64,000 nucleotides of DNA from Mycolicibacterium sp. HK-90 (GTDB taxonomy: Bacteria > Actinomycetota > Actinomycetes > Mycobacteriales > Mycobacteriaceae): assembly GCF_030486405.1 (NCBI RefSeq), contig NZ_CP129613.1, forward strand, positions 3,906,001-3,970,000, read 5' to 3'. The notes beneath the pieces are model-generated. The model saw only the letters and a list, made by a program, of their open reading frames with translations. It searched no databases and was not told the DNA's origin. Positions 43,036 to 62,267 of the stretch are shown here, in pieces. Position 1 is the stretch's first letter. Each line of letters opens with the position of its first letter. Position numbers and translations under genes: made by a program.

Positions 43036-43926
43036 TCAGACTCGGGATCTCTCGGGCAGCTCATGGTCAGGCACGGACGTACCCAGAGTTCGCAGCAGCG
43101 CCAGCGCCCGTTCCGAGGGTGACCCCGCGACGGTGGTGACCACGACCAGATTCTGACCGGGCGAGCGGGTGATGGCCAGCGTCTGCTGGGTGACAGTCAG
43201 GGCGCCTACCACGGGATGGTGCAAGTCGTAGGACGCCGCGTCACAGGGGGTGATCCGATGATCGCCCCACATGGTGACGAACTCCGGGCTCTTCATCGTC
43301 AGCTCACCGATGAGAGCCGCAAGATCCCGGTCGTCCGGATACCGCCCCACGGCGATGCGCAGATTGCCCACCACTGCCCGGGCCTTGCGTCGCCAGTCCG
43401 CGTACAGCTCGCGCTTGTGTTCGTCCAGGAACACCATCCGGCTGATGTTGGGCCGGTTCCTCACGTCGTCTACGGCAGCCCGATCCACGTGTCCAGCCAG
43501 CAGCGCATGCCCCAGGTGGTTCCAAGCCAAGACATCGGTGCGCCGGCCCAGAACCAGCGCCGGCGTCCCGTCGAGCGCGCGCATCAGGTCCCGCGTCTCG
43601 TCGCTCACCTTTTCGGGCCGCGGGCGCCGCGGCCGAGGTGCCCGTCGAGCCGCCCCGGCCAACCGTTCGAGGTGTTCACGCTCGTGCGTATCTAGTTGTA
43701 GTGCACCGGCAATCGCCTCAAGGACCTCAGGTGACGCGCCGCGGGAGATCCCCTGCTCGAGCCGCGTGTAATAAGACACACTGACTCCCGCCAGGTGCGC
43801 CACCTCATCGCGACGCAGACCCTGCACCCGCCGGCGCCCACCGAAGTCCGGCACACCGATGTCCTCGGGTCGGGTACGTGCGCGCCGCGCCTGCAGAAAT
43901 TCTCCGAGTGGCCCAGGTCCGTCCAT
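43036..43926 (-). CDS. XRE regulator with MmyB-like ligand domain
   Basis: 296-residue transcription factor. The N-terminal HTH lies at about residues 35-65 (GLRRDEVAHLAGVSVSYYTRLEQG), preceded by the conserved LGEFLQARRARTRPEDIG. The C-terminal two thirds match the MmyB-like PAS-type ligand domain (ALVLGRRTDVLAWNHLGHAL, VGNLRIAVGRYPDDRDL, HHPVVGALTVTQQTL). MmyB-like domains bind fatty-acid-like molecules. ATG 43926 gives the family start MDGPGPLGEFL. It is divergent from the metallo-beta-lactamase gene, its likely target. Confidence 0.88.
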   Translation of the reverse strand: MDGPGPLGEFLQARRARTRPEDIGVPDFGGRRRVQGLRRDEVAHLAGVSVSYYTRLEQGISRGASPEVLEAIAGALQLDTHEREHLERLAGAARRAPRPRRPRPEKVSDETRDLMRALDGTPALVLGRRTDVLAWNHLGHALLAGHVDRAAVDDVRNRPNISRMVFLDEHKRELYADWRRKARAVVGNLRIAVGRYPDDRDLAALIGELTMKSPEFVTMWGDHRITPCDAASYDLHHPVVGALTVTQQTLAITRSPGQNLVVVTTVAGSPSERALALLRTLGTSVPDHELPERSRV

Positions 43927-44052
43927 CGTTCCAGTATCCGTGCGCTGTGGAACCCAGCCACCCCCTGCCAGGGATAGGACCGACGAGGTGTAGCTGCCCA
44001 CCGCTCCCGTCCACAGACTCGTGTGAGCAACACCGATGATCGAGGGAGTCAC

Positions 44053-44958
44053 ATGGAACAGATCGAATTGGGCGACGTCACCGTCACCCGCGTCAAGGAG
44101 TACTACGGCTCCGTGCAAATGGGGCCCGCAGATTTCTTTCCGGACAGCACCCGCCACGACTGGGAAGCCAACAAGCATTGGCTGGCCCCCGATTTCTGGG
44201 ATCCCGGCACCGATCAGTGCATCTCGGCGATCCAGACCTGGGTGCTGCGCAGCGAGGGCCGGACCATCCTGGTCGACACCGGTGTCGGCAACCACAAGGA
44301 GCGGCCGCACGTCCCGGTATGGAACCACCTCGACACCGCGTTCCTCGACAATCTGGCCGCCGCAGGTGTTGCGCCCGAAGACGTCGACGTGGTGATCAAT
44401 ACCCATCTACACATCGACCACGTGGGCTGGAACACCCGTCTGGACGGTTCAACGTGGGTGCCCACCTTCCCGAATGCGACCTATCTGATGTCGCAACGCG
44501 ATTTCGAGTTCTGGGACCCGGCCAATGTTCACAAACCCGCCGCCAGCCGCGGAAGTATGAACGTGTTCGAAGACAGCGTCACCCCGGTCCACCAAGCCGG
44601 GTTGACCCATCTTTGGGACGAGGCCTACCAGATCGACAAGAATCTGCGGCTGGACCTCGCGCCCGGACACACACCCGGATCGTCAGTCTTGACAGTGGAA
44701 TCCGGCGGAGACCGAGCCGTGTTCGTCGGCGATCTCATCCATACCCCGCTGCAGATCGTCACACCACAGACCAACAGTTGCTTCTGCGAAGACCCCACGG
44801 AATCACGCAACACCAGGCACAAGCTGCTGGGCCGCGCCAGCGACGACAATGCGCTGCTGTTCCCGGCACACCTCGGCGGCCACGGCGCTGTTGAAGTGGT
44901 CCGCGACGGCTCCAGTTTCGCGATCAAGGGATGGGCCGGCTTCGCCCGTATCCGCTGA
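44053..44958 (+). CDS. Metallo-beta-lactamase-fold hydrolase
   Basis: 301-residue cytosolic metallohydrolase with the HxHxDH zinc motif THLHIDHVGWN (His118, His120, Asp122, His123), further ligands in LAPGHTPGSS and FVGDLIH, and an N-terminal sheet VLRSEGRTILVDTGVGN. This layout is common in lactonases. A lactone or ester substrate is plausible given the neighbouring esterases. ATG 44053 is chosen over the GTG at 44023 because GAGGGA precedes it with a 5-nt spacer. It lies 23 nt before the carboxylesterase gene. Confidence 0.88.
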   Translation: MEQIELGDVTVTRVKEYYGSVQMGPADFFPDSTRHDWEANKHWLAPDFWDPGTDQCISAIQTWVLRSEGRTILVDTGVGNHKERPHVPVWNHLDTAFLDNLAAAGVAPEDVDVVINTHLHIDHVGWNTRLDGSTWVPTFPNATYLMSQRDFEFWDPANVHKPAASRGSMNVFEDSVTPVHQAGLTHLWDEAYQIDKNLRLDLAPGHTPGSSVLTVESGGDRAVFVGDLIHTPLQIVTPQTNSCFCEDPTESRNTRHKLLGRASDDNALLFPAHLGGHGAVEVVRDGSSFAIKGWAGFARIR

Positions 44959-44981
44959 TACCGATCACCACAGGAGAACCC

Positions 44982-46421
44982 TTGTCTCAGAACAACACAA
45001 CCGTCGTCCGAACCCGTTACGGAGCGGTGTGCGGCATCCGCGACCACAGCGGCGAGCGCTACCGCGCGATCCCCTATGCCGCCACCCCGACTGGAGCCGG
45101 CCGCTTCGCTCCGCCGGCACCACATCCGGGTTGGGACGGCGTCCGGGACGCGACAGGTCACGGTGCGACGGCGCCGCAGCCGGTCCGCGACTTCGGCGCA
45201 CTGGACATGCGGCCGTATTTCGGCCCGGGTTGGGTGCGTGGCGCGGATTATCTGACGCTCGACGTGCACACTCCCGCCGCCGATGACGCGGCGCGACCGG
45301 TGATGATCTTCGTCCACGGCGGCGGATTCGTCACCGGGTCATCGCAGGCCGCGCTGTACGACGGCCGGGCATTCACCCGTGACGGCGTCGTGCTCGTCAC
45401 CCTCAACTATCGCTTGGGGATCGCCGGGTTCCTCGATATCCCGGGAGCGCCGCGCAACCGCGGGCTGCTCGACGTGCTGGCCGCGCTGAGGTGGGTCCGC
45501 GACTCGATCAGCACCTTCGGTGGTGATCCCGGAAACGTAACGCTGTTCGGCCAATCCGCCGGCGCCACCTTGGTGGGAGCCCTGCTCGCCACACCGGAGG
45601 CCACCGGGTTGTTCCACCGGGCTGTCATGCAGAGCGGTAGCGGCACAGGTGCGTTCACACCTGAGCAGGCTGCCCGAGTCACTCACGCTGCGGCCGTCCG
45701 GTTGAGTGCACAGCCCACCGTGGACGGGCTGGCAGGCATTCCCGATGAACAGTTCATCGCCGTGCTGCCCACGCTGGCAGGTATTGATCTGCGTACCGCC
45801 ACCGCCACCGACCCACTGGTGGGCCTGAGCCCATTCAGCCTCGTCCTGGACAGGCAGCCCGCCGATGCATTGGCGCACGGTCCGGCGGCCGATGTCGCTC
45901 TGCTCATCGGTACCAATACCGAAGAGGGCAACCTCTATCTCGTCCCCCAGCGCATCTTCGAGACGTCCGGGCACGCTGATGTCGTGGCCGTGGCAGCGCA
46001 GAGCCATCTGGCCCCTGAGACCGCTGTGCGGGCCCTGGTCACCCGCCTGCCGGCTGCCACGCACGGCGAGCTGCGCTCGGCCCTGCTCGGCGAGGCGCTT
46101 TTCGGCGCCGGCTCCGCCCTGATCGCCCGGGCGCACTCGCTGATCTCGGCACGTGGAACCTATGTCTATCGTTTCGGATTCCGATCGACAGCGCTGGGCG
46201 GCAAACTGGGCGCGGCGCACACCGTGGAGCTTCCCTTTGTCTTCGACATCGCCGATTCGCCGTGGCTGCACGGGACGACGGGTCTGCTGGGGCCCGATGC
46301 CGTTCCGAATGGGCTTGCCGACGAAATGCACCGTTCCTGGATCTCGTTTGCCCGCAATGGTTCTCCAGGTTGGAACGCGCACCGTGAGCCAACCGGCGTG
46401 ATCAAGCACTTCGGGTACTGA
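44982..46421 (+). CDS. Type B carboxylesterase/lipase
   Basis: 479-residue alpha/beta hydrolase of the cholinesterase-like family. The oxyanion hole is HGGGFVTGS (112-120), the nucleophile Ser192 in LFGQSAGAT, and the Glu likely lies in IGTNTEEGNLYL; His is probably in the AAHTVELPF block. No signal peptide is visible, so it should be cytosolic. The start is TTG 44982 with AGGAGA upstream; the longer frame would overlap the previous gene. It probably forms an operon with the metallo-beta-lactamase-fold gene. Confidence 0.87.
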   Translation: MSQNNTTVVRTRYGAVCGIRDHSGERYRAIPYAATPTGAGRFAPPAPHPGWDGVRDATGHGATAPQPVRDFGALDMRPYFGPGWVRGADYLTLDVHTPAADDAARPVMIFVHGGGFVTGSSQAALYDGRAFTRDGVVLVTLNYRLGIAGFLDIPGAPRNRGLLDVLAALRWVRDSISTFGGDPGNVTLFGQSAGATLVGALLATPEATGLFHRAVMQSGSGTGAFTPEQAARVTHAAAVRLSAQPTVDGLAGIPDEQFIAVLPTLAGIDLRTATATDPLVGLSPFSLVLDRQPADALAHGPAADVALLIGTNTEEGNLYLVPQRIFETSGHADVVAVAAQSHLAPETAVRALVTRLPAATHGELRSALLGEALFGAGSALIARAHSLISARGTYVYRFGFRSTALGGKLGAAHTVELPFVFDIADSPWLHGTTGLLGPDAVPNGLADEMHRSWISFARNGSPGWNAHREPTGVIKHFGY

Positions 46422-46728
46422 TGCCCTGCCGGCCTTCGCCTGTGCACCCTGTCGCTTCCGCGTCAGCACTGATTACCGATGGTCCGGAATGGAACTTCCG
46501 CCGGCTGGGCACACCAAGCCGGACGCTGTCGTTCGCACATCGACATGCGTCCGGCCGGCGTGCTGAAACATCAGGCTGGGGCGGCGCCACTCACGACCAC
46601 CCTCACCGACAACAGTTGCAGGATCTGGCAAATCGTCCCGACAACGACCCATGGAGTCGAGCACGTCGGCGGATCCACCCGCGAGAAAATGGGGACGCTG
46701 ACCTCACTGTCTCATGACACCCGGCCTG
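46422..46728. other. Intergenic segment with no recognisable gene
   Basis: 307 nt between the carboxylesterase stop and the end of DUF3237 copy A. Both strands have short open frames but none with a convincing start or family resemblance. The duplicated segment runs to about 46722 on this side. It may hold remnants of a disrupted gene. Confidence 0.5.
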
Positions 46729-47187
46729 TCATAGTGCGACTCGGAAGACTTGGAATTCGACGACTGGTCCGGGTTGGATGCGTCCTTGTCCGACGAAGAT
46801 GGTTTGGTTGACCCAGGCGTATTTGGGGTCTCCGGATTCCAGTCGTGGGGTGGTGACGAAGTAGTGGTCGCCGAAGTCGGTGCCACTGCTGGCGCCGCCG
46901 AGGGCTCCTGCGGCGGCTTCGTTGACTTCGACCAGGCCTTGGTAGCTCATGTAGATGACGGCGCCGTCGTCGGTGTAGAACTGGGCGCGCACATCGAGTC
47001 GGCCGTAGCCGTCCTCGCCGGCCAGTAGCCAGTCTCCGCCGCCGGGGGCGGCGGTGCCGCTGAATCGGTTTCCGGTGACTTTTCCTCCGGTGACGGCGAG
47101 GACTTGGCGTAGTCCGTAAGGGCCTGGGCCGACGATCTGGGGTTCGGCGAGCTCTGCGGTGTAGCTGAACTCCGGCTCCAACTTCAC
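46729..47187 (-). CDS. DUF3237 protein, copy A
   Basis: 152-residue protein of the DUF3237 family, function unknown (start MKLEPEFSYTAELAEPQIVG). The protein is identical to copy B at 55498-55956, and the DNA differs at only one base that I found (third base of codon 2: AAG versus AAA). Codons favour GGA, CGA, CAA and CCA, unlike neighbouring genes, suggesting a separate origin. The GTG start overlaps the SnoaL stop by 4 nt, so it is coupled to that gene. The duplicated DNA continues into the first codons (ATGACAGGCC) of the hydrolase that follows copy B. Confidence 0.9.
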   Translation of the reverse strand: MKLEPEFSYTAELAEPQIVGPGPYGLRQVLAVTGGKVTGNRFSGTAAPGGGDWLLAGEDGYGRLDVRAQFYTDDGAVIYMSYQGLVEVNEAAAGALGGASSGTDFGDHYFVTTPRLESGDPKYAWVNQTIFVGQGRIQPGPVVEFQVFRVAL

Positions 47188-47666
47188 TGGACAGCCCCCA
47201 CTCCGGCGGCTGCCATCACAGCTGACATACCCTCGGCGATCACGTCGCGACCAAAGGCCTCAAGCACGACATTGGGATTGAAGTACTCGCGGATCAGCAC
47301 AACCTTGCCGTCCCGGATCCGCATATGGGTGCAATAGGTATTGGCGTAGATCTTGCCGGTCTGCGTGACCGTCGCCTTTCCGTGCAGTTCCAGGATGAAG
47401 AGTTCCGGGTCGGTCGTGTCGTGCACGGTCAGCGAATCGATCCGGAGGTCGGGCACCGAGGCGAAGAACCAGTCGATGAAATGACCGATCAGGTGTCGAC
47501 CGGGCACGGTATCGGCGAGCGGCTCGGGAGCAAAGGGCATCTCCCACACGCCATCCTCGGCAAAGTTGTCCTTCCACGCCTCCAGAGCCTCGCCGCGAGG
47601 CGGGCCGTCATCAAGGGCCTCCCAGAATCGCTCAACCGTCGCGCGGTTGTTCGTTTGTACGCTCAT
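47184..47666 (-). CDS. SnoaL-like / nuclear transport factor 2 family protein
   Basis: 160-residue alpha+beta barrel protein: RATVERFWEALDDGPPRGEA, WEMPFAPEPLADTVPGRHLI, the strand block ATVTQTGKIYANTYCTHMRI and REYFNPNVVLEAFG. Family members act as isomerases, cyclases or hydrolases, or bind small molecules. ATG 47666 was chosen with GGAGG upstream. It is first in a two-gene unit with DUF3237 copy A. A TCAACA-N3-TGTCGA palindrome lies 79 nt upstream, so it is probably under the island TetR regulator. Confidence 0.87.
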   Translation of the reverse strand: MSVQTNNRATVERFWEALDDGPPRGEALEAWKDNFAEDGVWEMPFAPEPLADTVPGRHLIGHFIDWFFASVPDLRIDSLTVHDTTDPELFILELHGKATVTQTGKIYANTYCTHMRIRDGKVVLIREYFNPNVVLEAFGRDVIAEGMSAVMAAAGVGAVQ

Positions 47667-47744
47667 GCGCCCGCCTCCATGTCTCGGTCGACTGCCGTCA
47701 CAGTCGGTTGCCAAAATTGAGAGTGCACAATTTGTCGATAAAAG

Positions 47745-47759
47745 TCAACACTCTGTCGA
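47745..47759. promoter_or_regulatory. EthR-like operator 1
   Basis: TCAACA-CTC-TGTCGA, 79 nt upstream of the SnoaL gene start, one of five copies of TCRACA-N3-TGTYGA in the island. Confidence 0.55.
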
Positions 47760-47821
47760 CAACCGACACCCGTTGCTCTCAAACGCGATTCGCAGCCATC
47801 TGAGCGATCAACGTTCATTTA

Positions 47822-47836
47822 TCGACATGTTGTTGA
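47822..47836. promoter_or_regulatory. EthR-like operator 2
   Basis: TCGACA-TGT-TGTTGA, 101 nt upstream of the reductase gene start, in the same divergent intergenic region as operator 1. Confidence 0.55.
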
Positions 47837-47936
47837 GTATCAGCGACGTTACGTCTAACCTAGCTGGTGGCAGACGCGGCACCTTCGCCACACAATGTCC
47901 GCCGCCCCCAACCACCGTTCACGACGAGGATCCGCG

Positions 47937-48974
47937 ATGACGACACCAATCAACCGACTCTTTCGGCTACAGAGCCGGCCGCAAGGCCAGGTAACCGAAA
48001 GTGACCTCGCGTGGGTCGAGGAGCCCCTTGCCGAAATTGACGAGGGGCAAGCACTAGTCCGAACCCTCTACCTATCGCTCGATCCCACAAACCGTGTCTG
48101 GATGAGCCAGTTGCGTTCCTACATCCCGCCGGTTGAGTTGGGCGCGGTGATGCGGGGGCTCGGGGTCGGACAGGTCATCGAAAGTCGGCGAGACGATCTG
48201 CCGGTCGGAGCCTTCGTCCTCGGATTCACCGGCTGGCAAGAATATTGTGTCGCTGACGATTCCGTGCTGGAGTTTCCGTTCACAGTGCTGCCCGACCCAC
48301 TACCGGCGCCGCTTTCGGCATTCCTGGGAGTACTCGGCCACACCGGCATTTCAGCGTTCATCGGCATCGAGCTGGGCGATCCGCAGCCGGGCGAGACGGT
48401 TGTCGTTTCCGCCGCCGGGGGCGCCGTCGGTTCAATCGCCGGACAGCTGGCCAAGAAGCGAGGCGCCCGCGTGGTCGGCATCGCCGGCGGCGCCGAGAAG
48501 TGCCGGCACCTGGTGGAGGAACTGGGCTTCGACGCATGCGTAGACCGGCACTCGGACGACTGGCGCGAGCAACTCGACGTGGCGACGCCCGAGGGCATCG
48601 ACGTCGACTTCGAGAACGTGGGCGGCCCGATCATGGATCACATCCTGGGCCGGTTGAACATCGGTGCACGAGTGGCGCTGTGTGGTCTGATTTCGGAGTA
48701 CGACACCTACAACGACGACGGCGATCAACCGGGCCTGCGCAACGCAAACCAGTTGCTCATGCAGCGAGCCACCCTGCGGGGCTTCATCGTCACCGACCAC
48801 ATCGAGCGCTACGCCGAGATCATCGGCAAACTGGCCGCCGCGCTGGGCGAGGGCTCAGTGATGTACGACGAAACCGTCGTCGAAGGTCTGGAGAATGCTC
48901 GGGAAACCCTCAACCAGGCACTCTCCGGCGGCGCGCGAGGAAAGACGGTCGTCCAGGTCGCACCGCTCCCCTAG
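47937..48974 (+). CDS. NADP-dependent medium-chain reductase (MDR superfamily)
   Basis: 345-residue zinc-free medium-chain dehydrogenase/reductase close to the prostaglandin/curcumin/leukotriene reductase branch. It has the N-terminal block RTLYLSLDPTNRVWMSQLRS, the nucleotide loop VSAAGGAVGSIAGQLAK near residue 155, and DFENVGGPIMDHIL. These enzymes reduce the double bond of enones. ATG 47937 is preferred to the frame start at 47895. It is controlled by the divergent promoter region with operators 1 and 2 and ends in a 14-bp hairpin shared with the next gene. Confidence 0.88.
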   Translation: MTTPINRLFRLQSRPQGQVTESDLAWVEEPLAEIDEGQALVRTLYLSLDPTNRVWMSQLRSYIPPVELGAVMRGLGVGQVIESRRDDLPVGAFVLGFTGWQEYCVADDSVLEFPFTVLPDPLPAPLSAFLGVLGHTGISAFIGIELGDPQPGETVVVSAAGGAVGSIAGQLAKKRGARVVGIAGGAEKCRHLVEELGFDACVDRHSDDWREQLDVATPEGIDVDFENVGGPIMDHILGRLNIGARVALCGLISEYDTYNDDGDQPGLRNANQLLMQRATLRGFIVTDHIERYAEIIGKLAAALGEGSVMYDETVVEGLENARETLNQALSGGARGKTVVQVAPLP

Positions 48975-48992
48975 CCCGTTGTGAACAATGCG

Positions 48993-49026
48993 CCGCCCAA
49001 CCGGTGACAAGACACCGGTTGGGCGG
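48993..49026. terminator. Hairpin between convergent genes
   Basis: Perfect 14-bp stem CCGCCCAACCGGTG / CACCGGTTGGGCGG with loop ACAAGA, located between the convergent reductase and acyl-CoA synthetase genes. No T-run follows, so termination in both directions is probable but not certain. Confidence 0.6.
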
Positions 49027-49198
49027 TCGCCTCCAGTCTCGTGTGCGACATCGGTCCCGATCTCCCGCCACCAGAGTCGGACCAGCAATCGACTGCGAAA
49101 GCGATTGCGATGGAACACCTTCCGGGAAGCTACCATCGTCTGGTGTCACCGACCGTGTCGCGGAACATCGGACCGGTGAGCCATACCGGCATGTACCG

Positions 49199-50764
49199 TC
49201 AGCCTCCCTCTGGTTCGGCCCTCCGAATCGCCGCAGCACCGGATGAGCTACCGATGGCGTAGTACTCAGCCGATCCCGGCGAGTTGGGCGGGTGCACCTC
49301 CCGTCGGAGGATCTTGCCGGTCGGGCCTTTGGGCACGGAGTCGACGAACCAGATTTCGCGGGGGTATTTGTACGCGGCGAGGCGATCTCGTACGAACGCC
49401 TTCAATTCGCCGACTTCTGCGTGCGCCCCACGTTTGAGGGCAACGGCCGCGCCGATCTCCTCACCGAGGTCCGCGTGTTTGATACCGATCACAGCAGCTT
49501 CAGCGACAGCGGGATGTTCGTACAGCACTTCCTCAACTTCGCGTGGATACACGTTGTACCCACCCCGGATGATCAGATCCTTCTTCCGGTCGACGATGGT
49601 GTAGTACCCGTCGCCATCGCGAATGGCGATGTCGCCGGTACGAAACCAGCCATCGGGGATGGCTTCGGCCGTCGCCTCAGGTCGGTTCCAGTATCCCTTC
49701 ATCAAATTCTCGCCCTGGATGGCGATCTCGCCAGGTGTGCCGTCGGGAACGTCCTCGCCCGCGTTGTCGACGAGCCGCAGCGCGCAGCCCCGCACAGGTA
49801 TCCCGATGGTGCCGGGTCTGCGCTGGTGCGCGGGTTGGTTGAAGCAGGCAATGGGCGCCGTCTCTGAGAGCCCGTATCCTTCGTAGATTTCACAGTCGAA
49901 CTTGTGCTCAAACGCTTTGAGAATCTCGACAGGCATGGGCGCACCGCCGGTAATACACGTGCGGAGCGAGGACATGTCGGTGTTATCCGCATCGGGAGAG
50001 TGCAGCATCGCGGCATACATGGTGGGCACGCCTTCGAGAACCGTCACTCGATCGCGGGCCAGGACATGCAAGGCCTTGGTCGCCTCGAAGCGACGCACAA
50101 GGGTCAGGAGGGCCCCGGCTTTGACTGCTGCATTGAGTCCGCAGGTGAGGCCGAAGACGTGGAACAGTGGCAAGCAACCCAGGATCACGTCTTCGGGGCC
50201 CACGTTGATCAATGTGTCCACTGTCGTCGCGGCGTTGGAGGACATGTTCCGGTGGGTGAGTTCTGCCCCCTTGGGTTTCCCGGTAGTCCCCGAGGTGTAA
50301 AGAATCACCGCGGTATCGCTGTCGGTCCGCTCGGCCGCTTCATGGATTGGATTGCCGGACAGGTTGGTTGGCCCCGTAGGGGGCACCAACACCGAGCGAA
50401 CTCCGACCTTCGCCGCTGCGGACGGCACGACGGAGTCGCTGCCCTCCAACCCGTATACCACCGTCATACCCGAGTCGGCGAGGTAGTACTCGACCTCACG
50501 GGCACTTAGCAACGGATTCATGGGAACTGCGACCGCACCCGCCAGGAGAGCGCCGTAGAAGACCACTGCATATGCCGGGACGTTGGGCAGCACCAGGCCC
50601 ACTCGGTCGCCGGGGAGCACACCTTGGGCTTGCAGGTCTCCGGCCACAGCCGAAGCGTGGTCATAGAGCTGCCGGTAGGACAGCACGTAGTCGTCGAGCT
50701 TCACGGCCGGCCGGTTCCCGTATTCGTGCGCGGTCGCGACCAGATTGCCGGCGAGGTTGGACAC
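49199..50764 (-). CDS. Acyl-CoA synthetase (AMP-forming, FadD-like)
   Basis: 521-residue ANL superfamily ligase activating a carboxylic acid to its CoA thioester. The P-loop is [16 protein letters not shown] at 156-171, the A5 region [11 protein letters not shown] and A8 [17 protein letters not shown]; the catalytic Lys is in [14 protein letters not shown] 50764 ([20 protein letters not shown]) has AGGAG 6 nt upstream and matches the family; the in-frame ATG at 50911 would add an atypical 49-residue N-terminus. The C-terminal tail ([15 protein letters not shown]...) is longer than usual. Divergent from tetR, with one operator between. Confidence 0.88.
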
Positions 50765-50936
50765 AGTTGTCTCCTGGTTCGAAAGAGAGCTCGCATTTTC
50801 ATCCGCGGCCAGGCCTGCGAATCCCATTTGAGCGCATGCCGAACAGCGGCCGAATCTGTAGACGGCCCGGGCCGACACGAACGTCTGAGGCGGGGCCGAT
50901 GCAGCACTCATAGTATGCACTGCGCGTGGGTGATTA

Positions 50937-50951
50937 TCAACACACTGTCGA
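50937..50951. promoter_or_regulatory. EthR-like operator 3
   Basis: TCAACA-CAC-TGTCGA, 67 nt upstream of the tetR start and 173 nt from the acyl-CoA synthetase GTG, so well placed for autoregulation. Confidence 0.55.
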
Positions 50952-51017
50952 TAATTACTGGCGCTTTCCGACTCCGGTACACCTGCTTCGCGGTTGGCCT
51001 GACCTATCATCTTTCGT

Positions 51018-51719
51018 ATGGCGTCCACTTCATCTTTCAACCTGAGCACCACAGAAACACGGGTGGGCCGACGAAACATCAAAGGTGATCGACGCGAACA
51101 AGCCATCCTCGAAGGTGCGTACGACATGTTGCGCACAGCGCCCCTGCGCAACATCTCCATCGACGATCTCACCAAGCGCGCCGGGCTGTCGCGGTCGTCG
51201 TTCTACTTCTACTTCGAGTCCAAATGGCAGCTACTGTCTGCGCTGCTCTCGAGGGTGACCGCCGACGTGTTCCAGGCATCGCAACTGATTTTCGAGCGCC
51301 CGGCCGGCATGCCGCCGGAGGCGGCCATCGAGCACGCGGTCAACGAGGTCATTCAGGTCTGGGAACAGCACGGTCATGTACTTCGTGAAGTGGCCGACGC
51401 CGCTGCGGCCGAGCCGGACCTGCAGACCCAGTGGGACTCGATCCTCGGCCGGTTCATCGACGCTGCGGCCACCGGCATCGAGCGGGACAGAAAGACCGGC
51501 GTGGCGATAGCCGGCCCGCCGGCCAGGTCGTTGGCCGCTGCGTTGATGTGGATGGGGGAACGCAACCTCGCGTTGATGAGTATGCGCAGCGAGAACGCAA
51601 TCCCGTTGGAGGACATGGCCGAAACGGTGACGACGATTTGGCTGCGGACGGTCTACGGCCTTGAGTGGAAGCCGCGCGAGAAGCCCAGCAAACGCCGTAA
51701 GTCCTCCTCGAAGGCGTGA
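51018..51719 (+). CDS. EthR-like TetR family regulator
   Basis: 233-residue repressor. The HTH region (about 35-80) reads [20 protein letters not shown] then [15 protein letters not shown], closely like M. tuberculosis EthR (ISVDDLAKGAGISRPTFYFY). The C-terminal domain shows [13 protein letters not shown], comparable with the NLMNERTLFASF region of EthR. The basic tail ([12 protein letters not shown]) is an oddity. It sits beside operator 3, and the same palindrome occurs at the other two divergent promoters of the island. It is therefore the best candidate for their common regulator. The ligand is unknown. ATG 51018. Confidence 0.88.
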
Positions 51720-51768
51720 TCGACGTCTTCGAGGAGGGCTCCGCTTGACGTGGAAGACCGCTCGGGCG

Positions 51769-52635
51769 TTATTGGTTGTCCAGGGCCATTTTTGTCATGT
51801 TGAGGCCGGGCATGAGCATGTGACCGCCCTCGACCAACATCTCGAGGCCTGTGGTCCATTGTGATTCGTCGGAGGCCAGCCACAGCACCGCCTCGCTCAT
51901 GGCCTGCGGCGGTAGCAGGCCCACGTCCCGGAGAACTGCCCAGTACTTCGCGCCCTGCAAGTCCTCTTTGACACCCTGGCCAGGCCCCTTGCCGGCGCAG
52001 AGGTCGTAGCCGCCCTGCCAGTCCAGGGCGGGGGTGTCGGTAGGCCCGGGAAGCAGCGAGTTGACTCGGATGCCGTACTGGCCGAACTCAAGTGCCGCAC
52101 TCTTCGCCAAGCCGAGTACGCCGTGCTTCGACGCCACGTAGTGGACGTAGTGGGGAGACCCCTCCACGCCGTTGCCGGACGAGGTGATGATCACCGAGCC
52201 GCCTCCGCGCGACTTCATGGCGGGAGTCACCGCTTTCAATGTGCGCCAGGGCCCCATGATGTTGACGTTGAGCACGTCCAGGAACTCGTCCTCGGGAATG
52301 TCCGCGAACGGGTGCACGGTCCAGATCCCGGCGTTGGCCACCGCGACGTCGAGTCCACCGAAGGCCTGCACGCCCTCAGCCACCAACCTGTCCAGCGCGG
52401 CCTGCTCGCGGACGTCGCCTTGGTGTGCGATGATCCGCCGCCCCAGCGCCTCGACTTCCTTGACCGTGATCTCGAGGTCAGCTGCGGTGCCGACGGGATA
52501 GGGAACCCCGCCATTCGCCGGGCAGTCGAAGGCGAGGATGTCCGCCCCTTCCTGCGCGAGTCGAATCGCATGTGCTCGCCCCTGACCACGAGCCGCTCCG
52601 GTGACCAGAGCGACCTTTCCTTCCATGCGTCCCAT
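51769..52635 (-). CDS. Mycofactocin-type SDR dehydrogenase
   Basis: 288-residue short-chain dehydrogenase: GKVALVTGAARGQGRAHAIR near residue 5, NAG at ANAGIWTVHPF, the catalytic YVASKHG, and LLPGPTDTP. The TGAARGQGRAHA pattern and internal insertions match the carveol-dehydrogenase-like group predicted to use mycofactocin-recycled NAD (TIGR03971). It is predicted to oxidise a secondary alcohol with a tightly bound cofactor. ATG 52635 is chosen over GTG 52641 because GAGGAG sits 5 nt upstream. It is the last gene of the cupin-ALDH-VOC-SDR unit. Confidence 0.88.
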   Translation of the reverse strand: MGRMEGKVALVTGAARGQGRAHAIRLAQEGADILAFDCPANGGVPYPVGTAADLEITVKEVEALGRRIIAHQGDVREQAALDRLVAEGVQAFGGLDVAVANAGIWTVHPFADIPEDEFLDVLNVNIMGPWRTLKAVTPAMKSRGGGSVIITSSGNGVEGSPHYVHYVASKHGVLGLAKSAALEFGQYGIRVNSLLPGPTDTPALDWQGGYDLCAGKGPGQGVKEDLQGAKYWAVLRDVGLLPPQAMSEAVLWLASDESQWTTGLEMLVEGGHMLMPGLNMTKMALDNQ

Positions 52636-52718
52636 GTTCACTCCTCTTCAAAGGTGATTCGTTTACGGCCAGCCAGCCGGCGAGACCGCTTGTGGTGCAA
52701 CGGTTATAGATCGAGGCC

Positions 52719-53144
52719 TCACCCGCTTGGCCTGATCAGTTGGAGAAGAACATCGATTCCGGGAGGCTCGGCCCAGACATGTGTGGCATCCCCCATCTGA
52801 ATCGGTGCATCGATCGGCTCCGCGCGCCCAGGTCCTCGAATGGCACAGCCCGCGAGTTCCGGACCATCTGCGTGGTGTAGCCATAGTGCTACGTGGTCGA
52901 GTTTTGCCGGCGCTCCGTCGAGTGCTACCTCAAGCGCGTCCAGGTCGTGCATGGTGTACAGCTCGACCTCTGCGCCGGACATGTTGAGGAAAGCCGCGCT
53001 GATACTCATGACCGGCACCTCGACCGCGCGAGCAACCTCGACCCCAAACCGATTGGACCAGTGCGCAAGTGCCGAGTCCAAGTCGCGTACCAGAATGCCG
53101 ACATGGTCGAGTCGAGGGACACCCGCAGAGCGTGGCGAGCTCAC
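52719..53144 (-). CDS. VOC family protein (glyoxalase-like)
   Basis: 141-residue VOC-fold protein starting MSSPRSAGVPRLDHVGILVRDLDSALAHW, like methylmalonyl-CoA epimerase-type members. Metal-ligand candidates are the His of LDHVG, VELYT and the matching KLDHVALWL in the second module. GTG 53144 overlaps the stop of the aldehyde dehydrogenase gene by 4 nt (GTGA), so the genes are coupled and probably act in one pathway. The substrate is unknown. Confidence 0.82.
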   Translation of the reverse strand: MSSPRSAGVPRLDHVGILVRDLDSALAHWSNRFGVEVARAVEVPVMSISAAFLNMSGAEVELYTMHDLDALEVALDGAPAKLDHVALWLHHADGPELAGCAIRGPGRAEPIDAPIQMGDATHVWAEPPGIDVLLQLIRPSG

Positions 53145-54646
53145 TGACTGCCCGCTGCGACAAAGTGCGGAGCAAGTCCGGGCCTGGGCTCGGTCCACCG
53201 CTGGGTGACCACCTTGGACCTCGTGTAGAAGCGGTAGCCGTCGTAGTTGAGCCCGTCGTCTCCGAAGCGCGACTCGCCCCATCCGCCGAAGCCGAACCAG
53301 GAAATCGGCACGGGGATAGGCACGTTGATTCCTATGCTGCCCGCCGATACACCACGGCTGAATCGACGTGCAGCCGTGCCGCTGCCTGTGAAAATGATGG
53401 CGCCGTTCCCGTAGGGATTATCGTTGACAATCCGCAGGGCCTGCTCGAGATCATCGGCGCGAAGCACACTCAGGACCGGCCCGAACACTTCGTCACGGTA
53501 GAGGTCGCTGTCGACGCTGACGTGGTCGACGAGACTAGGGCCAATGAAGTAGCCGGTTCCGGGTGCTGTCCGTTCCCGACCGTCTACGACCAGTCGGCCA
53601 CCCTGCTCGACGGAGCGTTGCAGCGCACTACGGACCCGATCGAGTGCGCGCTCTGAGATCAATGGCCCCATGTCAGAGCCCGCCGCCGCGCCCGGACCCA
53701 CCTTGAACGCATTGGTGCGCTCGGAAACCTTGGACACCAACGCATCTGCCGCCGATCCGACCGCGACAGCGACCGTAACAGCCATGCATCGCTGACCTGC
53801 GGCGCCGTAGGCCGCCGAAACCAGCGCATCGGCCGCGGCATCGAGGTCTGCGTCGGGCATCACCACCAGGTGGTTCTTGGCGCCGCCGAGGGCCTGCACC
53901 TTCTTGCCCGCCTCGGCCGAGCGCCGATAGATCGCACGGGCGACAGGTGTAGACCCGACGAATGACACCGCGGCGACGTCGGGGTGGTCGATGAGCGCCT
54001 CGGCTGCCTCTACCCCTCCGTGCACAACGTTGAGCACGCCGTCGGGCAATCCTGCTTCGCTCGCGATCTGCGCCAACCGCACCGATGCCGACGGCACCTG
54101 TTCACTCGGTTTGAGCACGAACGCGTTCCCGCACGCAATTGCGGCCGCGAACATCGACACCGGCACCATCACCGGAAAGTTGAACGGTGTGATGCCTGCG
54201 CATACACCGAGCGGTTGCCGGAAAGAGTACGTGTCGACCCCATTGGCAACCTGCTCGGCGTACTCCCCTTTTAGCTGCTGCACAACCGAAAGCGACACGT
54301 CGATGGCTTCGATCGAGCGCGCCAACTCTCCCCGGGCATCTGCGAGCGTCTTGCCCTGTTCGGCCGTGATGATCGACGCCAAGTCGTCTACCTGCTCGTG
54401 CAACAACCCCCGGAACCGATGCAGTACCGACGCGCGAGCAGGGCTGGGGGTGTCGGCCCAGGCCACGGCGGCAGTTCGCGCACTGACGACAGCTTCATCG
54501 ACGGCATCGGCACCGCCCAACACGACGGTCCCGATCACGCGTCCCGTAGCGGGATCATGGATCTCGGCTCGCGGCCCCTCCGTCGAGGAGACTGCCGCGC
54601 CGCCGATCCAATGCGGCACGGTGTCAAGAGATACATCGATGGTCAC
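53141..54646 (-). CDS. CoA-acylating aldehyde dehydrogenase, MmsA-type
   Basis: 501-residue aldehyde dehydrogenase of the methylmalonate-semialdehyde dehydrogenase type. It has GVCAGITPFNFPVMVP, the catalytic Cys in GAAGQRCMAVTVAV, FVGSTPVARAIY and EVFGPVLSVLR. MmsA enzymes release CO2 and form acyl-CoA; here the catalysed step in the island is unassigned. GTG 54646 has TTGGAG 5 nt upstream; the frame start at 54673 adds residues without support. It follows the cupin gene by 49 nt and is coupled to the VOC gene. Confidence 0.88.
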   Translation of the reverse strand: MTIDVSLDTVPHWIGGAAVSSTEGPRAEIHDPATGRVIGTVVLGGADAVDEAVVSARTAAVAWADTPSPARASVLHRFRGLLHEQVDDLASIITAEQGKTLADARGELARSIEAIDVSLSVVQQLKGEYAEQVANGVDTYSFRQPLGVCAGITPFNFPVMVPVSMFAAAIACGNAFVLKPSEQVPSASVRLAQIASEAGLPDGVLNVVHGGVEAAEALIDHPDVAAVSFVGSTPVARAIYRRSAEAGKKVQALGGAKNHLVVMPDADLDAAADALVSAAYGAAGQRCMAVTVAVAVGSAADALVSKVSERTNAFKVGPGAAAGSDMGPLISERALDRVRSALQRSVEQGGRLVVDGRERTAPGTGYFIGPSLVDHVSVDSDLYRDEVFGPVLSVLRADDLEQALRIVNDNPYGNGAIIFTGSGTAARRFSRGVSAGSIGINVPIPVPISWFGFGGWGESRFGDDGLNYDGYRFYTRSKVVTQRWTEPRPGLAPHFVAAGSQ

Positions 54647-54695
54647 AGCAACTCCAATGATCAGTAATGCCAAATATCCGAAACGACAACCACTC

Positions 54696-55256
54696 TCACG
54701 CGATCGCCCGGGGATGCGGAATTTCGGGGAACATCTCCAGGCCGTAGTTGACCTTCAGATTCTCGACCTCAGCCTGCAGCTGCTCGGGCGTCCGGAGCTC
54801 ACGATCGCGCGCTTCGTAGAAGTACTTGTCGATACCGCCATTTGGCTCGAAACCCGAGCTGTCGGGTCCGGGCACGAACACCACGAGGATCCGGGCTTCG
54901 TCACCGACCACTTCATAGGTGTGCCGCTGATCCTTACGCCCCCAGACGAACTGGCCCTTCTTGGCGTTGTACGAACCGGCCTCGGTGTGAATCTTGATTT
55001 CACCGTCCATGACGAAGAAGCCCTCTTCCTCACGGTGGTGGATGTGCCAGACCGGTTCAGTACCACGGACCCAGTTGGTCTCGATGACGATCAGCTGACC
55101 GTTGGTGGTCTCACCGGTCGCGTGAATCCAGAAATCCACCCCCGTCATGAAATCACCGGTCATGTTGAAGTGGATGTCCTCACGGTGGGAGACATAACTC
55201 TCGCCATCGCGTGAAGTTGACGGTTGGATCTGGTCGACGTCCGATCTCGTGGCCAT
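54696..55256 (-). CDS. Cupin domain protein
   Basis: 186-residue single cupin: motif 1 WHIHHREEEGFFVMDGEIKIH and motif 2 KKGQFVWGRKDQRHTYEVVG. The histidines suggest a bound metal. The C-terminal 40 residues are helical (TPEQLQAEVENLKVNYGLEM). Reaction unknown; quercetinase-like or isomerase-like roles are possible. First gene of the leftward unit, with operator 4 located 92 nt upstream of its ATG. Confidence 0.86.
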   Translation of the reverse strand: MATRSDVDQIQPSTSRDGESYVSHREDIHFNMTGDFMTGVDFWIHATGETTNGQLIVIETNWVRGTEPVWHIHHREEEGFFVMDGEIKIHTEAGSYNAKKGQFVWGRKDQRHTYEVVGDEARILVVFVPGPDSSGFEPNGGIDKYFYEARDRELRTPEQLQAEVENLKVNYGLEMFPEIPHPRAIA

Positions 55257-55347
55257 GTCAATCCTCTTGTGTCGTTGTAGCGCCGTGCGCCGGTGTCCGG
55301 TGTCACGGCCTTGGCGAAGTTGAGATTAGACTCACAGTCGATATTAG

Positions 55348-55362
55348 TCAACAGAGTGTCTA
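55348..55362. promoter_or_regulatory. EthR-like operator 4
   Basis: TCAACA-GAG-TGTCTA, one mismatch from the consensus, 92 nt upstream of the cupin gene start. Confidence 0.5.
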
Positions 55363-55404
55363 CTTTTTGCGCCCGCACCCCAAGGGGCGACGTCAAGCAA
55401 CAAA

Positions 55405-55419
55405 TCGACAATGTGTTGA
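55405..55419. promoter_or_regulatory. EthR-like operator 5
   Basis: TCGACA-ATG-TGTTGA, 79 nt upstream of the DUF3237 copy B start; operators 4 and 5 serve the two divergent units. Confidence 0.55.
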
Positions 55420-55497
55420 CTATCACCAACACATAGTGCACGCTCGGACTCACCGCGGAGGTGGAAAGCAGCCCCGCCCGAAAACGGAGGTCCTTCA

Positions 55498-55956
55498 GTG
55501 AAATTGGAGCCGGAGTTCAGCTACACCGCAGAGCTCGCCGAACCCCAGATCGTCGGCCCAGGCCCTTACGGACTACGCCAAGTCCTCGCCGTCACCGGAG
55601 GAAAAGTCACCGGAAACCGATTCAGCGGCACCGCCGCCCCCGGCGGCGGAGACTGGCTACTGGCCGGCGAGGACGGCTACGGCCGACTCGATGTGCGCGC
55701 CCAGTTCTACACCGACGACGGCGCCGTCATCTACATGAGCTACCAAGGCCTGGTCGAAGTCAACGAAGCCGCCGCAGGAGCCCTCGGCGGCGCCAGCAGT
55801 GGCACCGACTTCGGCGACCACTACTTCGTCACCACCCCACGACTGGAATCCGGAGACCCCAAATACGCCTGGGTCAACCAAACCATCTTCGTCGGACAAG
55901 GACGCATCCAACCCGGACCAGTCGTCGAATTCCAAGTCTTCCGAGTCGCACTATGA
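55498..55956 (+). CDS. DUF3237 protein, copy B
   Basis: 152-residue DUF3237 protein identical to copy A at 46729-47187 but in inverted orientation. GTG start with GGAGGT 6 nt upstream. It overlaps the following hydrolase gene by 4 nt (ATGA) and is the first gene of that unit. Because the start of the hydrolase is part of the duplicated DNA, this is probably the parental arrangement and copy A a derivative, although the reverse cannot be excluded. Function unknown. Confidence 0.9.
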   Translation: MKLEPEFSYTAELAEPQIVGPGPYGLRQVLAVTGGKVTGNRFSGTAAPGGGDWLLAGEDGYGRLDVRAQFYTDDGAVIYMSYQGLVEVNEAAAGALGGASSGTDFGDHYFVTTPRLESGDPKYAWVNQTIFVGQGRIQPGPVVEFQVFRVAL

Positions 55957-56885
55957 CAGGCCTGCATACGCAGGTCCAACTGTTGTTGCAGTCGCTGTCC
56001 GAGCGCCCTGCCCCACAACCGTGGGAGATGCCGATCGCGGCCTACCGGGAGGCCGGCGAGAAGTTGATCGCGTTGGCGGGCAACGTTGACAATCGTTGCA
56101 CAGTAAATGATTTCACGATTCCCGTCCCTGACGGTACGATCTCGGCGCGTTGTTACCGACCACCGGTGGCCAGACCGACGCTGCCGGGCGTGGTCTATCT
56201 GCACGGCGGGGCGTTCGTACGCGGAAGCCTCGACACCCACGATCGGCTGTGCCGAAAACTCTGCGTCCGGGGCGAACTCATCGTAGTTTCCGTGGCCTAC
56301 CGCCTGGCACCAGAAGATCGGTTTCCCGGTGCCCACCACGACGCCGCCGATGCCTTTGCCTGGGTGAGTGAGCATGCCGGTGAGCTGGGCATCGACGTCG
56401 AATCCCTTGCGGTCGCAGGTGATTCCTCCGGGGGTGCACTGGCGGCGAGCGTTGCGCTTACCTCGCGAGAACAAGGCCCTGCGGTCAAGGCCCAAGGTCT
56501 GCTGTGCCCTGCACTCGATGCCACCATGAGCAGTGACTCGGTCGAACGGTACAAGGACGGCCCCTTCCTCACCCGGGCCGCGCTTGAATGGGCTTACGAC
56601 ATGTACGTGCCCGAGATCGACGACCGTCGTTCGAGCCTCGCCTCACCGCTGCTGACGCGGCATCTCGTCGGCGCTCCGCCTGCCGTGATCGTCAGTGCTC
56701 AGATCGATCCCGTTGCCGATGATGCGCACCGCTACGCTGACCGCCTCGCTGCGGCGGGAGTCAAGGTTCAAGCCCATGAGTACGACGGCATGCCGCACAG
56801 CTTCCCGTTACTGGCGGGCGTACTCGACGATGGCGATCACGCCATCACGGTATTCGCGCGGGAGCTCGCCGCGTTGCTCGACTAG
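55953..56885 (+). CDS. HSL-family alpha/beta hydrolase
   Basis: 310-residue esterase/lactonase of the hormone-sensitive-lipase (GDXG) family. The oxyanion motif is HGGAFVRGS at 84-92, the nucleophile Ser158 in AGDSSGGALA, Asp in SAQIDPVADDA and His in YDGMPHSFPL. No signal peptide. Members of this family open epsilon-lactones in monoterpene degradation, which would fit the island, but ester hydrolysis is equally possible. ATG 55953 overlaps the upstream gene. Confidence 0.88.
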   Translation: MTGLHTQVQLLLQSLSERPAPQPWEMPIAAYREAGEKLIALAGNVDNRCTVNDFTIPVPDGTISARCYRPPVARPTLPGVVYLHGGAFVRGSLDTHDRLCRKLCVRGELIVVSVAYRLAPEDRFPGAHHDAADAFAWVSEHAGELGIDVESLAVAGDSSGGALAASVALTSREQGPAVKAQGLLCPALDATMSSDSVERYKDGPFLTRAALEWAYDMYVPEIDDRRSSLASPLLTRHLVGAPPAVIVSAQIDPVADDAHRYADRLAAAGVKVQAHEYDGMPHSFPLLAGVLDDGDHAITVFARELAALLD

Positions 56886-60214: not shown

Positions 60215-60505
60215 CTACGCCTCAGTGAAGGTCGGAACCCAGCCGTCGCAGCTCTCGCAGTAGTAGTAGCCCACCAGCTTCACCTGGCCGAGGGCCAGGG
60301 CCACGGCGTCAGCGTTCGAGACGTGACGGAGCGCGGCCTGGGCTTCTATATCGGTCAGCGGTGGCGGACAGCACCCAGGGCAGTCGCAGCTGTCGGTCTC
60401 ACCTGCCGTGGTCATCTCAGCGCGCAGCTTCGCCCGGCCCAGCAAGGCCAGCCGCCCACCGGACGGGGCGGTGCGGCAGGCCATCGGCGCGGCCTGGTGG
60501 CTCAC
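60215..60505 (-). CDS. Small putative zinc-binding phage protein, 96 aa
   Basis: Cys-rich: CDCPGCCPP near residue 41 and YYYCESCDGW near 82, possibly one zinc site. GTG 60505 overlaps the terminase stop by 4 nt (GTGA); an internal ATG at 60415 (MTTAGETDSCDC) is an alternative. Function unknown. Confidence 0.6.
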   Translation of the reverse strand: MSHQAAPMACRTAPSGGRLALLGRAKLRAEMTTAGETDSCDCPGCCPPPLTDIEAQAALRHVSNADAVALALGQVKLVGYYYCESCDGWVPTFTEA

Positions 60506-62007: not shown

Positions 62008-62267
62008 GCGGCGCTCCTCACGGGCACGAAGCCCAGGTTCTCGGGGGTCCAGAGGTCGGCGCGCCGCCACTGGTGGCCGCACCGGTCACAGGCGTACTCA
62101 CAGATCAGGCGCGTGCCGCCGCGCCAGGTGACGGCATCAGGCTCGGTCTGGGTGCACAAGCGAACGCAGCGGTCCGCGTGGTGGCCCGCCGGGTTGCACT
62201 CGGGGCAGTAGTCGGGCAACCAGAAGTCATCGAACTGGCTGGATTTCGGGGCGGTCTTGGTCGTCAT
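62004..62267 (-). CDS. Zinc-finger-like small phage protein, 87 aa
   Basis: 87 residues with YCPEC and CDRC (plus CVRLC), forming one or two zinc-ribbon-like sites. ATG 62267 has GGAG 6 nt upstream; the frame also opens at GTG 62279. Coupled to terminase by GTGA. It could be a DNA-binding accessory protein; function unknown. Confidence 0.68.
   Translation of the reverse strand: MTTKTAPKSSQFDDFWLPDYCPECNPAGHHADRCVRLCTQTEPDAVTWRGGTRLICEYACDRCGHQWRRADLWTPENLGFVPVRSAA

Follow-up and report, generated by a model that had tools for sequence, protein, structure and literature searches.

In a stretch of 64,000 nucleotides of Mycolicibacterium sp. HK-90 (the window; positions 3906001-3970000 of a genome present as a single contig of 6,488,666 bases), the promoters of an island of enzyme-type genes carry the palindrome TCRACA-N3-TGTYGA. 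This palindrome very probably serves as operator for an EthR-family TetR repressor encoded in the island itself (at 51018), which would keep five promoters repressed until a metabolite releases it. The sites, their positions and conservation, the word shared with EthR, and the family of the regulator are read from the sequence. Under such a repressor, the enzyme genes of the island should be switched on and off together.

Results

Palindromic sites in the window and in the genome

A motif scan of the window identified exact copies of the palindrome at positions 47745, 47822, 50937, and 55405. The site at 55348 (TCAACAGAGTGTCTA) deviates by one mismatch, and the five-copy palindrome reported in a preliminary description of this DNA consequently comprises four exact copies and one degenerate copy. 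By chance, 0.01 exact matches are expected in the window as compared to the four found, and this number was reached in none of 100 shuffles. Recomputing the distances to the gene starts yielded 79 nucleotides for the SnoaL gene, 101 for the CurA-like gene, 67 for tetR, 92 for the cupin gene, and 79 for DUF3237 copy B, in agreement with the range of 67-101 nucleotides upstream of five gene starts given before. The FadD gene is the sixth gene, located 173 nucleotides from the middle site, given a start at the GTG at 50764.

Throughout the genome, the exact word occurs at seven places, namely four in the island, two in the ethA-ethR region, and one inside an mce-type gene with MlaD and Mce4_CUP1 domains, as compared to two matches for a control pattern, the word read backwards. 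With seven places in 6.49 Mb, the whole-genome count proposed in the preliminary description thus returned few stray exact matches. The claim that the sites are restricted to the island holds true within the window, but not in the genome, where the ethA-ethR pair is the main exception besides the mce-type site.

The motif was also considered as a global regulon signal and rejected, given one to seven exact sites per genome in the 17 searched mycobacteria that do not contain the island. A rough frame test of 42 loci (about one per genome, island and ethR sites included) placed 19 of 45 sites in coding-like frames; the test is crude, having scored as coding at least one site that immediately precedes an ethR gene (L140).

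A second operator in each promoter

A degenerate second operator, missed in the preliminary description, is located 21 base pairs (bp) downstream of each of the five sites. Of these second operators, a single-site scan allowing up to two mismatches detected only that at 47724. The operators and the predicted promoter elements are as follows:

47745..47759, minus strand: operator 1 of the SnoaL-DUF3237A promoter, TCGACAGAGTGTTGA, overlapping the predicted -35 element TTGACT at 47743-47748
47724..47738, minus strand: operator 2 of the SnoaL-DUF3237A promoter, TCGACAAATTGTGCA; its distance to operator 1 is 21 bp, and it overlaps the predicted -10 element at 47720-47725
47822..47836, plus strand: operator 1 of the CurA-like reductase promoter; -35 element TTGAGT at 47833-47838
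47843..47857, plus strand: operator 2 of the CurA-like promoter, degenerate; -10 element TAACCT at 47856-47861
50937..50951, minus strand: operator 1 of the FadD promoter; -35 element TTGATA at 50935-50940
50916..50930, minus strand: operator 2 of the FadD promoter, degenerate; -10 element CATACT at 50912-50917
55348..55362, minus strand: operator 1 of the cupin-MMSDH-VOC-SDR promoter, one mismatch; -35 element TTGACT at 55346-55351
55327..55341, minus strand: operator 2 of the cupin promoter, TCGACTGTGAGTCTA; -10 element TAATCT at 55323-55328
55405..55419, plus strand: operator 1 of the DUF3237B-hydrolase promoter; -35 element TTGACT at 55416-55421
55426..55440, plus strand: operator 2 of the DUF3237B promoter, CCAACACATAGTGCA, overlapping the predicted -10 element at 55439-55444

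In a first set of 81 hand-picked promoters harboring a site with at most one mismatch (26 SnoaL, 15 FadD, 16 cupin, 10 DUF3237B, and 14 CurA), TTGANN is present at the -35 position in 79, and YANNNT follows exactly 17 nucleotides further on in all 81. Since these promoters had been picked at the expected places, the layout test was repeated on all 95 sites of the 27 islands described below. Without picking, 89 of them show TTGA at -35 and YANNNT 17 nucleotides on, with a gene start within 260 nucleotides; in the examined loci, the chance of YANNNT at a fixed place is 0.012.

At an offset of 21 bp, the mean score of the second operator is 7.68 of 12, as compared to 3.41 (standard deviation 0.73) across the offsets tried. 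This offset is best or tied in 77 of the 81 promoters and the sole best in 56, and an offset of 20 bp is tied in two and never the sole best. For the 89 layout-bearing sites, 21 bp is best or tied in 85. Moreover, a search of the genome for the two-operator pattern, allowing up to three mismatches, yielded five matches that deviate by one mismatch or less, all of them in the island (SnoaL, CurA, FadD, cupin, and DUF3237B) and each aimed at its gene. Three matches carry two mismatches, comprising the island SnoaL site on the opposite strand and two places elsewhere.

The island regulator is a second EthR-family protein

Judged by sequence, this genome encodes a second EthR-family TetR protein, the island regulator.

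51018..51719, plus strand: island regulator, EthR-family TetR protein of 233 amino acids, assigned by EthR_C, TetR_N, and PDB matches

The 51018 protein matches EthR_C (PF21313) with 86.7 bits (cut-off 27) and TetR_N (PF00440) with 36.9 bits (cut-off 24), and the eight best matches of a PDB search are all EthR (best E 1.3e-28), which bears out the earlier remark that the middle site adjoins an EthR-like gene. As this TCRACA-N3-TGTYGA operator is located 67 nucleotides upstream of the 51018 gene, autoregulation is likely. The protein is not the EthR of the genome, which is encoded separately at 6233297 (EthR_C, 156.6 bits) and is 34% identical to it over 196 amino acids. It likewise departs from an EthR orthologue in its divergent neighbor, which encodes an acyl-CoA synthetase and not a Baeyer-Villiger monooxygenase, and it shows neither the 20-bp tandem pitch nor Asn176 and Asn179.

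All 29 island-type rows have SRSSFYFY as the recognition helix, and SRPTFYFY is present in 31 of the 32 rows for EthR; the remaining row (L156) is empty. In the ligand pocket, Asn176 and Asn179 of EthR (numbering from the motif table of PMC13176608) are replaced by Met and Gly in the island TetR (ALMWMGER vs ALNLMNER); both residues are among the polar contacts of EthR ligands (PMC4759522). Given the nearly identical helix and the different pocket, the island TetR should read the DNA word of EthR but sense another compound. A further EthR_C protein encoded by this genome (G000:C1:4224053-4224670, L013:1434) has TAGACACTATGTCTA upstream, which shares the ACA-N3-TGT core and differs in the outer letters; such a shared core with other outer letters is perhaps a family-wide operator code.

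The island palindrome at ethA-ethR loci

At the ethA-ethR locus of the same genome, two exact words 20 bp apart are present between the gene encoding an EthA-type FMO-like monooxygenase (L009 2543-4012, minus strand) and ethR (L009 4074-4733, plus strand), the label EthA denoting here the position beside EthR together with a family match. The two words are followed at this pitch by a third copy, which is degenerate. The island palindrome is therefore the EthR operator word. We then compared 30 ethR loci, which are those closest to the tuberculosis EthR rather than a random sample of the genus genomes with EthR-type matches (365 of 396; E up to 1e-50). A tandem array with a 20-bp pitch scores at least 23 of 36 at 29 of these loci (median 29.5), and 26 of the 30 arrays surpass all 1,200 base-shuffled controls (mean 17.3, maximum 23). 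The thirtieth locus, L156, has an empty protein row, is probably misplaced, and was not counted as a negative. Wherever a strong site is present (29 loci), its best partner is located 20 bp away, once tied with 23 bp. The statement in the preliminary description that the EthR operator contains similar repeats is thereby confirmed.

The EthR operator was reportedly defined as 55 bp in a study from 2004, and three 15-mers with two 5-bp gaps likewise add up to 55 bp. The tandem 15-mer describes in simple terms a motif that a study of mycobacterial TetR motifs has described as larger and more complex and as present in multiple copies (PMC4482099). EthR reportedly binds cooperatively as an octamer at the ethA-ethR operator and represses both genes (PMC5403819).

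In Pseudonocardia eucalypti (G407), the word precedes the aligned starts of two genes for EthA-like monooxygenases (L215, L216) by 42-50 bp, with partners at 20 bp that were read by eye, and the EthR of this organism is accompanied by two degenerate copies 20 bp apart. This is perhaps an EthR regulon with two monooxygenases. As the island system is present as well, both systems coexist in this genome. The repeated TCGACACACTGTTGA sites in Pseudonocardia (ten rows besides L215) were rejected as regulon targets, because they represent one repeated context, TGTTGAGTTCTCAA or near it, several of them at contig ends; this context presumably resembles a ribosomal RNA leader. The site L215, upstream of a monooxygenase gene in G407, is the exception among them.

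Conservation of the sites across islands

Of 396 genus genomes, 12, including its own, contain close relatives of the island TetR (E up to 1e-45). A scan of named genomes yielded 27 loci from Mycolicibacterium (one labelled Mycobacterium), Williamsia, Pseudonocardia, and Nocardia. Loci L065 and L066, with the TetR and neither island nor sites, and L070, where the contig ends in the island and no sites are visible, were dropped before counting. The final 27 islands comprise the remaining loci, the window, L038, and L046, with repeated contigs counted once.

These islands contain 95 sites with at most one mismatch, none of which lies in the island genes (about 224 kb); the 199 kb of these loci that lie outside the islands contain six sites. 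A site is present within 260 nucleotides of all SnoaL-led (27/27), CurA-led (24/24), and DUF3237-hydrolase (10/10) units, of 22 of the 24 cupin-led units, and of six of the eight hydrolase-led units, where one site may count for two divergent genes. Moreover, its distance to the SnoaL start is 77-84 nucleotides in all 27 islands. Gene order varies between the genera; in three islands of Pseudonocardia, a single run behind the SnoaL promoter comprises the SnoaL, DUF3237, hydrolase, cupin, MMSDH, VOC, and SDR genes, with the site kept at its head. Thus, every unit named in the preliminary description has a site, and the sites are kept in four genera despite rearranged gene orders.

Several observations weigh against the palindrome as the operator of the island TetR. 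Only 15 of 24 TetR-led and 15 of 19 FadD-led units have a site within the same distance, and autoregulation is therefore not universal. Six of the 95 sites do not show the -35/-10 layout toward a gene in view, although three of them (L049, L050, and L053) are located at contig ends that truncate the gene. In the 81 promoters, an offset of 18 bp ties with 21 bp in 19 cases and is the sole best in four. The SnoaL, DUF3237B, and most FadD promoters display CANNNT instead of TANNNT at -10, which is weak for the main sigma factor; the same letters also form part of the second operator. In addition, the islands are related by descent, so that the counts are not independent, and second copies of the island-type TetR with the same helix occur in Nocardia speluncae and N. 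fusca (L065, L066) together with neither the island nor the sites.

Alternative explanations

The boxes could mainly reflect a shared promoter type, or the site of an unlinked regulator, with the TetR gene merely nearby. The 3′ half of the palindrome overlaps TTGA, with YANNNT 17 nucleotides on at 89 of the 95 sites, and part of the conservation is therefore promoter conservation. The upstream half TCGACA, however, is located outside the -35 element and is nevertheless kept, the palindrome is also present at the known EthR operator region, and the TetR gene accompanies the sites across four genera, which renders this explanation very improbable, albeit the least so of those considered. Regulation by the canonical EthR of the genome instead of the island TetR is very improbable. 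It would fit the identical 15-bp word at ethA-ethR and the occurrence of EthR-type matches throughout most of the genus. However, we searched 14 of the 15 non-mycobacterial genomes with the TetR for EthR (the L067 genome was left out, and in larger genomes the best 150 candidates were scored), and in 13 of them the island-type TetR itself (33-37%) ranks first among the scored matches, P. eucalypti being the one with a 53% EthR. Island sites are visible in 12 of these 13 genomes, and in the thirteenth (L070) the island is cut off. As nothing scored closer to EthR than the island TetR where the sites are present, the latter would be their natural reader. Likewise, the pitch is mostly 21 bp in the island, as compared to 20 bp in all 29 ethR loci that have a strong site.

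Some TetR proteins, such as FasR, are activators (PMC7382501). For the island TetR this mode of action appears more improbable still, since the operators overlap the predicted -35 and -10 elements, where a bound dimer would block the polymerase. That the sites are chance palindromes in GC-rich DNA has next to no probability: single sites do arise in this way, as indicated by the two control matches in the genome, but chance is refuted by four sites in the window against an expectation of 0.01, by the two-operator pattern found only in the island at up to one mismatch, and by the retention of the sites in 27 islands.

Genes of the island

Besides tetR, the island comprises the following genes:

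46729..47187, minus strand: DUF3237 copy A (PF11578, 141.2 bits)
47184..47666, minus strand: SnoaL-like protein with NTF2 fold (PF12680, 54.1 bits)
47937..48974, plus strand: CurA-like NADPH enone/alkenal reductase of the MDR superfamily (PF16884, PF00107)
49199..50764, minus strand: FadD-type acyl-CoA synthetase (PF00501, 326.4 bits), the GTG start at 50764 being our choice
51769..52635, minus strand: mycofactocin-coupled SDR (subfamily 1), carveol-dehydrogenase-like (TIGR03971, 313 bits, cut-off 300)
52719..53150, minus strand: VOC/glyoxalase-fold protein (PF13669, 42.2 bits)
53138..54646, minus strand: CoA-acylating methylmalonate-semialdehyde dehydrogenase (MMSDH) family (TIGR01722, 622 bits, cut-off 448.5)
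54693..55256, minus strand: cupin, quercetinase-like half (PF07883, 37.7 bits)
55498..55956, plus strand: DUF3237 copy B, the same protein as copy A, in an inverted repeat of it
55953..56885, plus strand: alpha/beta hydrolase of the hormone-sensitive-lipase type (PF07859, 229.8 bits)

The SnoaL-like protein was scanned from a longer open reading frame (47184-47714), and its start at 47666 was chosen by us. The CurA-like reductase scores 353.9 bits with NF058644, below the cut-off of 440, and is therefore a relative of the curcumin reductase CurA and not CurA itself. PDB matches of the SDR are carveol dehydrogenases, and the cupin matches quercetin 2,3-dioxygenase (E 8.2e-10). No monooxygenase was found by the profile scan of the ten island proteins. 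In Mycolicibacterium sp. P9-22 (L054 4725-8213), the CurA-like and FadD genes are separated by an insertion comprising a hydrolase gene and a gene for a monooxygenase of the aromatic-ring-hydroxylase type. Ten proteins scanned from six loci as substrate hints in the flanks of other islands revealed no common theme.

The core of the island is flanked by a 467-nucleotide inverted repeat with one mismatch (46723-47189 and 55496-55962, 8.3 kb apart), which contains the DUF3237 genes. In all ten mycobacterial islands with both copies in full view, the copies group by genome, with a similarity of 96.9-99.8% within a genome as compared to 87-96% across genomes, as a result of concerted evolution, probably by gene conversion. 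Non-mycobacterial islands show one copy. The G+C content of the island is 62.8% as compared to 68.4% in the rest of the window, which, together with its patchy spread in the genus, fits a horizontal gain.

To the left of the island (43039-46421), genes for an MBL-fold protein (PF00753) and a carboxylesterase (PF00135) are divergent from a gene encoding an MmyB-like regulator (PF17765, HTH_31). The MBL-fold and carboxylesterase genes (44023-46421) were rejected as members of the island: between 43039 and 46421 no EthR-type site was found at up to two mismatches, and the MmyB-like regulator gene is divergent from both. Genes similar to these two are located about 7 kb from the TetR copy in L066. 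To the right, a gene with a phage terminase large-subunit domain (60502-62082; PF03237, 57.2 bits) adds a phage-type gene to the window.

Discussion

Binding of the island TetR to its sites, repression, a ligand, and a pathway are what these features would imply, and we infer binding, repression, and the subsequent release by analogy to EthR. Two TetR dimers would occupy the two operators, which at 21 bp are two DNA turns apart, on one face of the DNA. With one dimer on the -35 and the other on the -10 element of each target promoter, RNA polymerase would be shut out at the SnoaL-DUF3237A, CurA-like reductase, acyl-CoA synthetase, cupin-MMSDH-VOC-SDR, and DUF3237B-hydrolase promoters, and the middle site upstream of tetR would probably confer autoregulation. 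A pathway metabolite entering the C-terminal pocket would then release the repressor, and all units would open together. In analogy to carveol catabolism, the enzymes may provide for alcohol oxidation to an enone or ketone, enone reduction, ester or lactone cleavage, and the supply of acyl-CoAs to beta-oxidation. Likewise, we infer that the island may be a new catabolic system, as suggested in the preliminary description.

For carveol and limonene, Rhodococcus erythropolis DCL14 employs a dehydrogenase, an enone reductase, a lactone-forming monooxygenase, a lactone hydrolase, and CoA activation (PMC4097962). By kind of step only, the island is similar with its carveol-type dehydrogenase, enone reductase, hydrolase, and CoA activation, but it differs in that the ten island proteins scanned include neither a Baeyer-Villiger monooxygenase nor a limonene hydroxylase.

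With the ethA-ethR system, the island shares the EthR_C domain, a nearly identical recognition helix, the tandem TCRACA-N3-TGTYGA, and divergent promoters. In contrast, its TetR is predicted to control ten enzyme-type genes and itself from several promoters, no monooxygenase is among the island proteins scanned, the pitch is mostly 21 bp and not 20 bp, and the pocket Asn176/Asn179 is changed to Met/Gly. The operators and C-terminal domains of KstR, KstR2, and BkaR probably differ from those of the island TetR. These mycobacterial proteins also belong to the TetR regulators, bind palindromes, and control carbon or amino-acid catabolism (PMC4482099), but they have other targets. By its description, the Rv0077c-Rv0078 pair (EthA2 and an EthR-like repressor) resembles the island in that the repressor gene is divergent from its target; here, however, the target is a monooxygenase, and no cross-talk with the ethA/R locus could be demonstrated (PMC5403819).

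EthR and the island TetR might be sister repressors that use one 15-bp word, are told apart mainly by pitch (20 vs 21 bp), and, in mycobacteria possessing both proteins, bind partially to each other's sites, with EthA supplying the ketone-to-ester step missing from the island. We consider this extension doubtful. EthA-like proteins with 49-56% identity occur in all 14 non-mycobacterial genomes searched. However, most of these genomes contain no EthR among the best candidates scored, and cross-talk between EthR and another EthR-like system could not be demonstrated (PMC5403819). In the nine of the 14 genomes with fully listed exact sites, the word is located just upstream of an EthA-like gene only in P. 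eucalypti.

Our literature search, with most subscription journals outside its coverage, yielded no description of the island or of the operator rule. EthR is a well studied drug target, the physiological role of which has been called unknown (PMC4482099); the same has been stated for EthA, with a link to mycolic acid composition added (PMC5403819). The wider interest of the island lies in the operator word that it has in common with EthR and in the pitch of 20 versus 21 bp. As a 15-bp word repeated in tandem with a spacing of 20 or 21 bp, this compact definition of an EthR-type operator lends itself to searches of any actinobacterial genome, and the compound that induces the island could be found by growth and reporter tests. 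Taken together, a second EthR-type switch would use the same DNA word to govern a whole set of catabolic-looking genes, and if the cross-link to EthA holds true, EthA-EthR would have a natural function in the breakdown of ketones or terpenoids.

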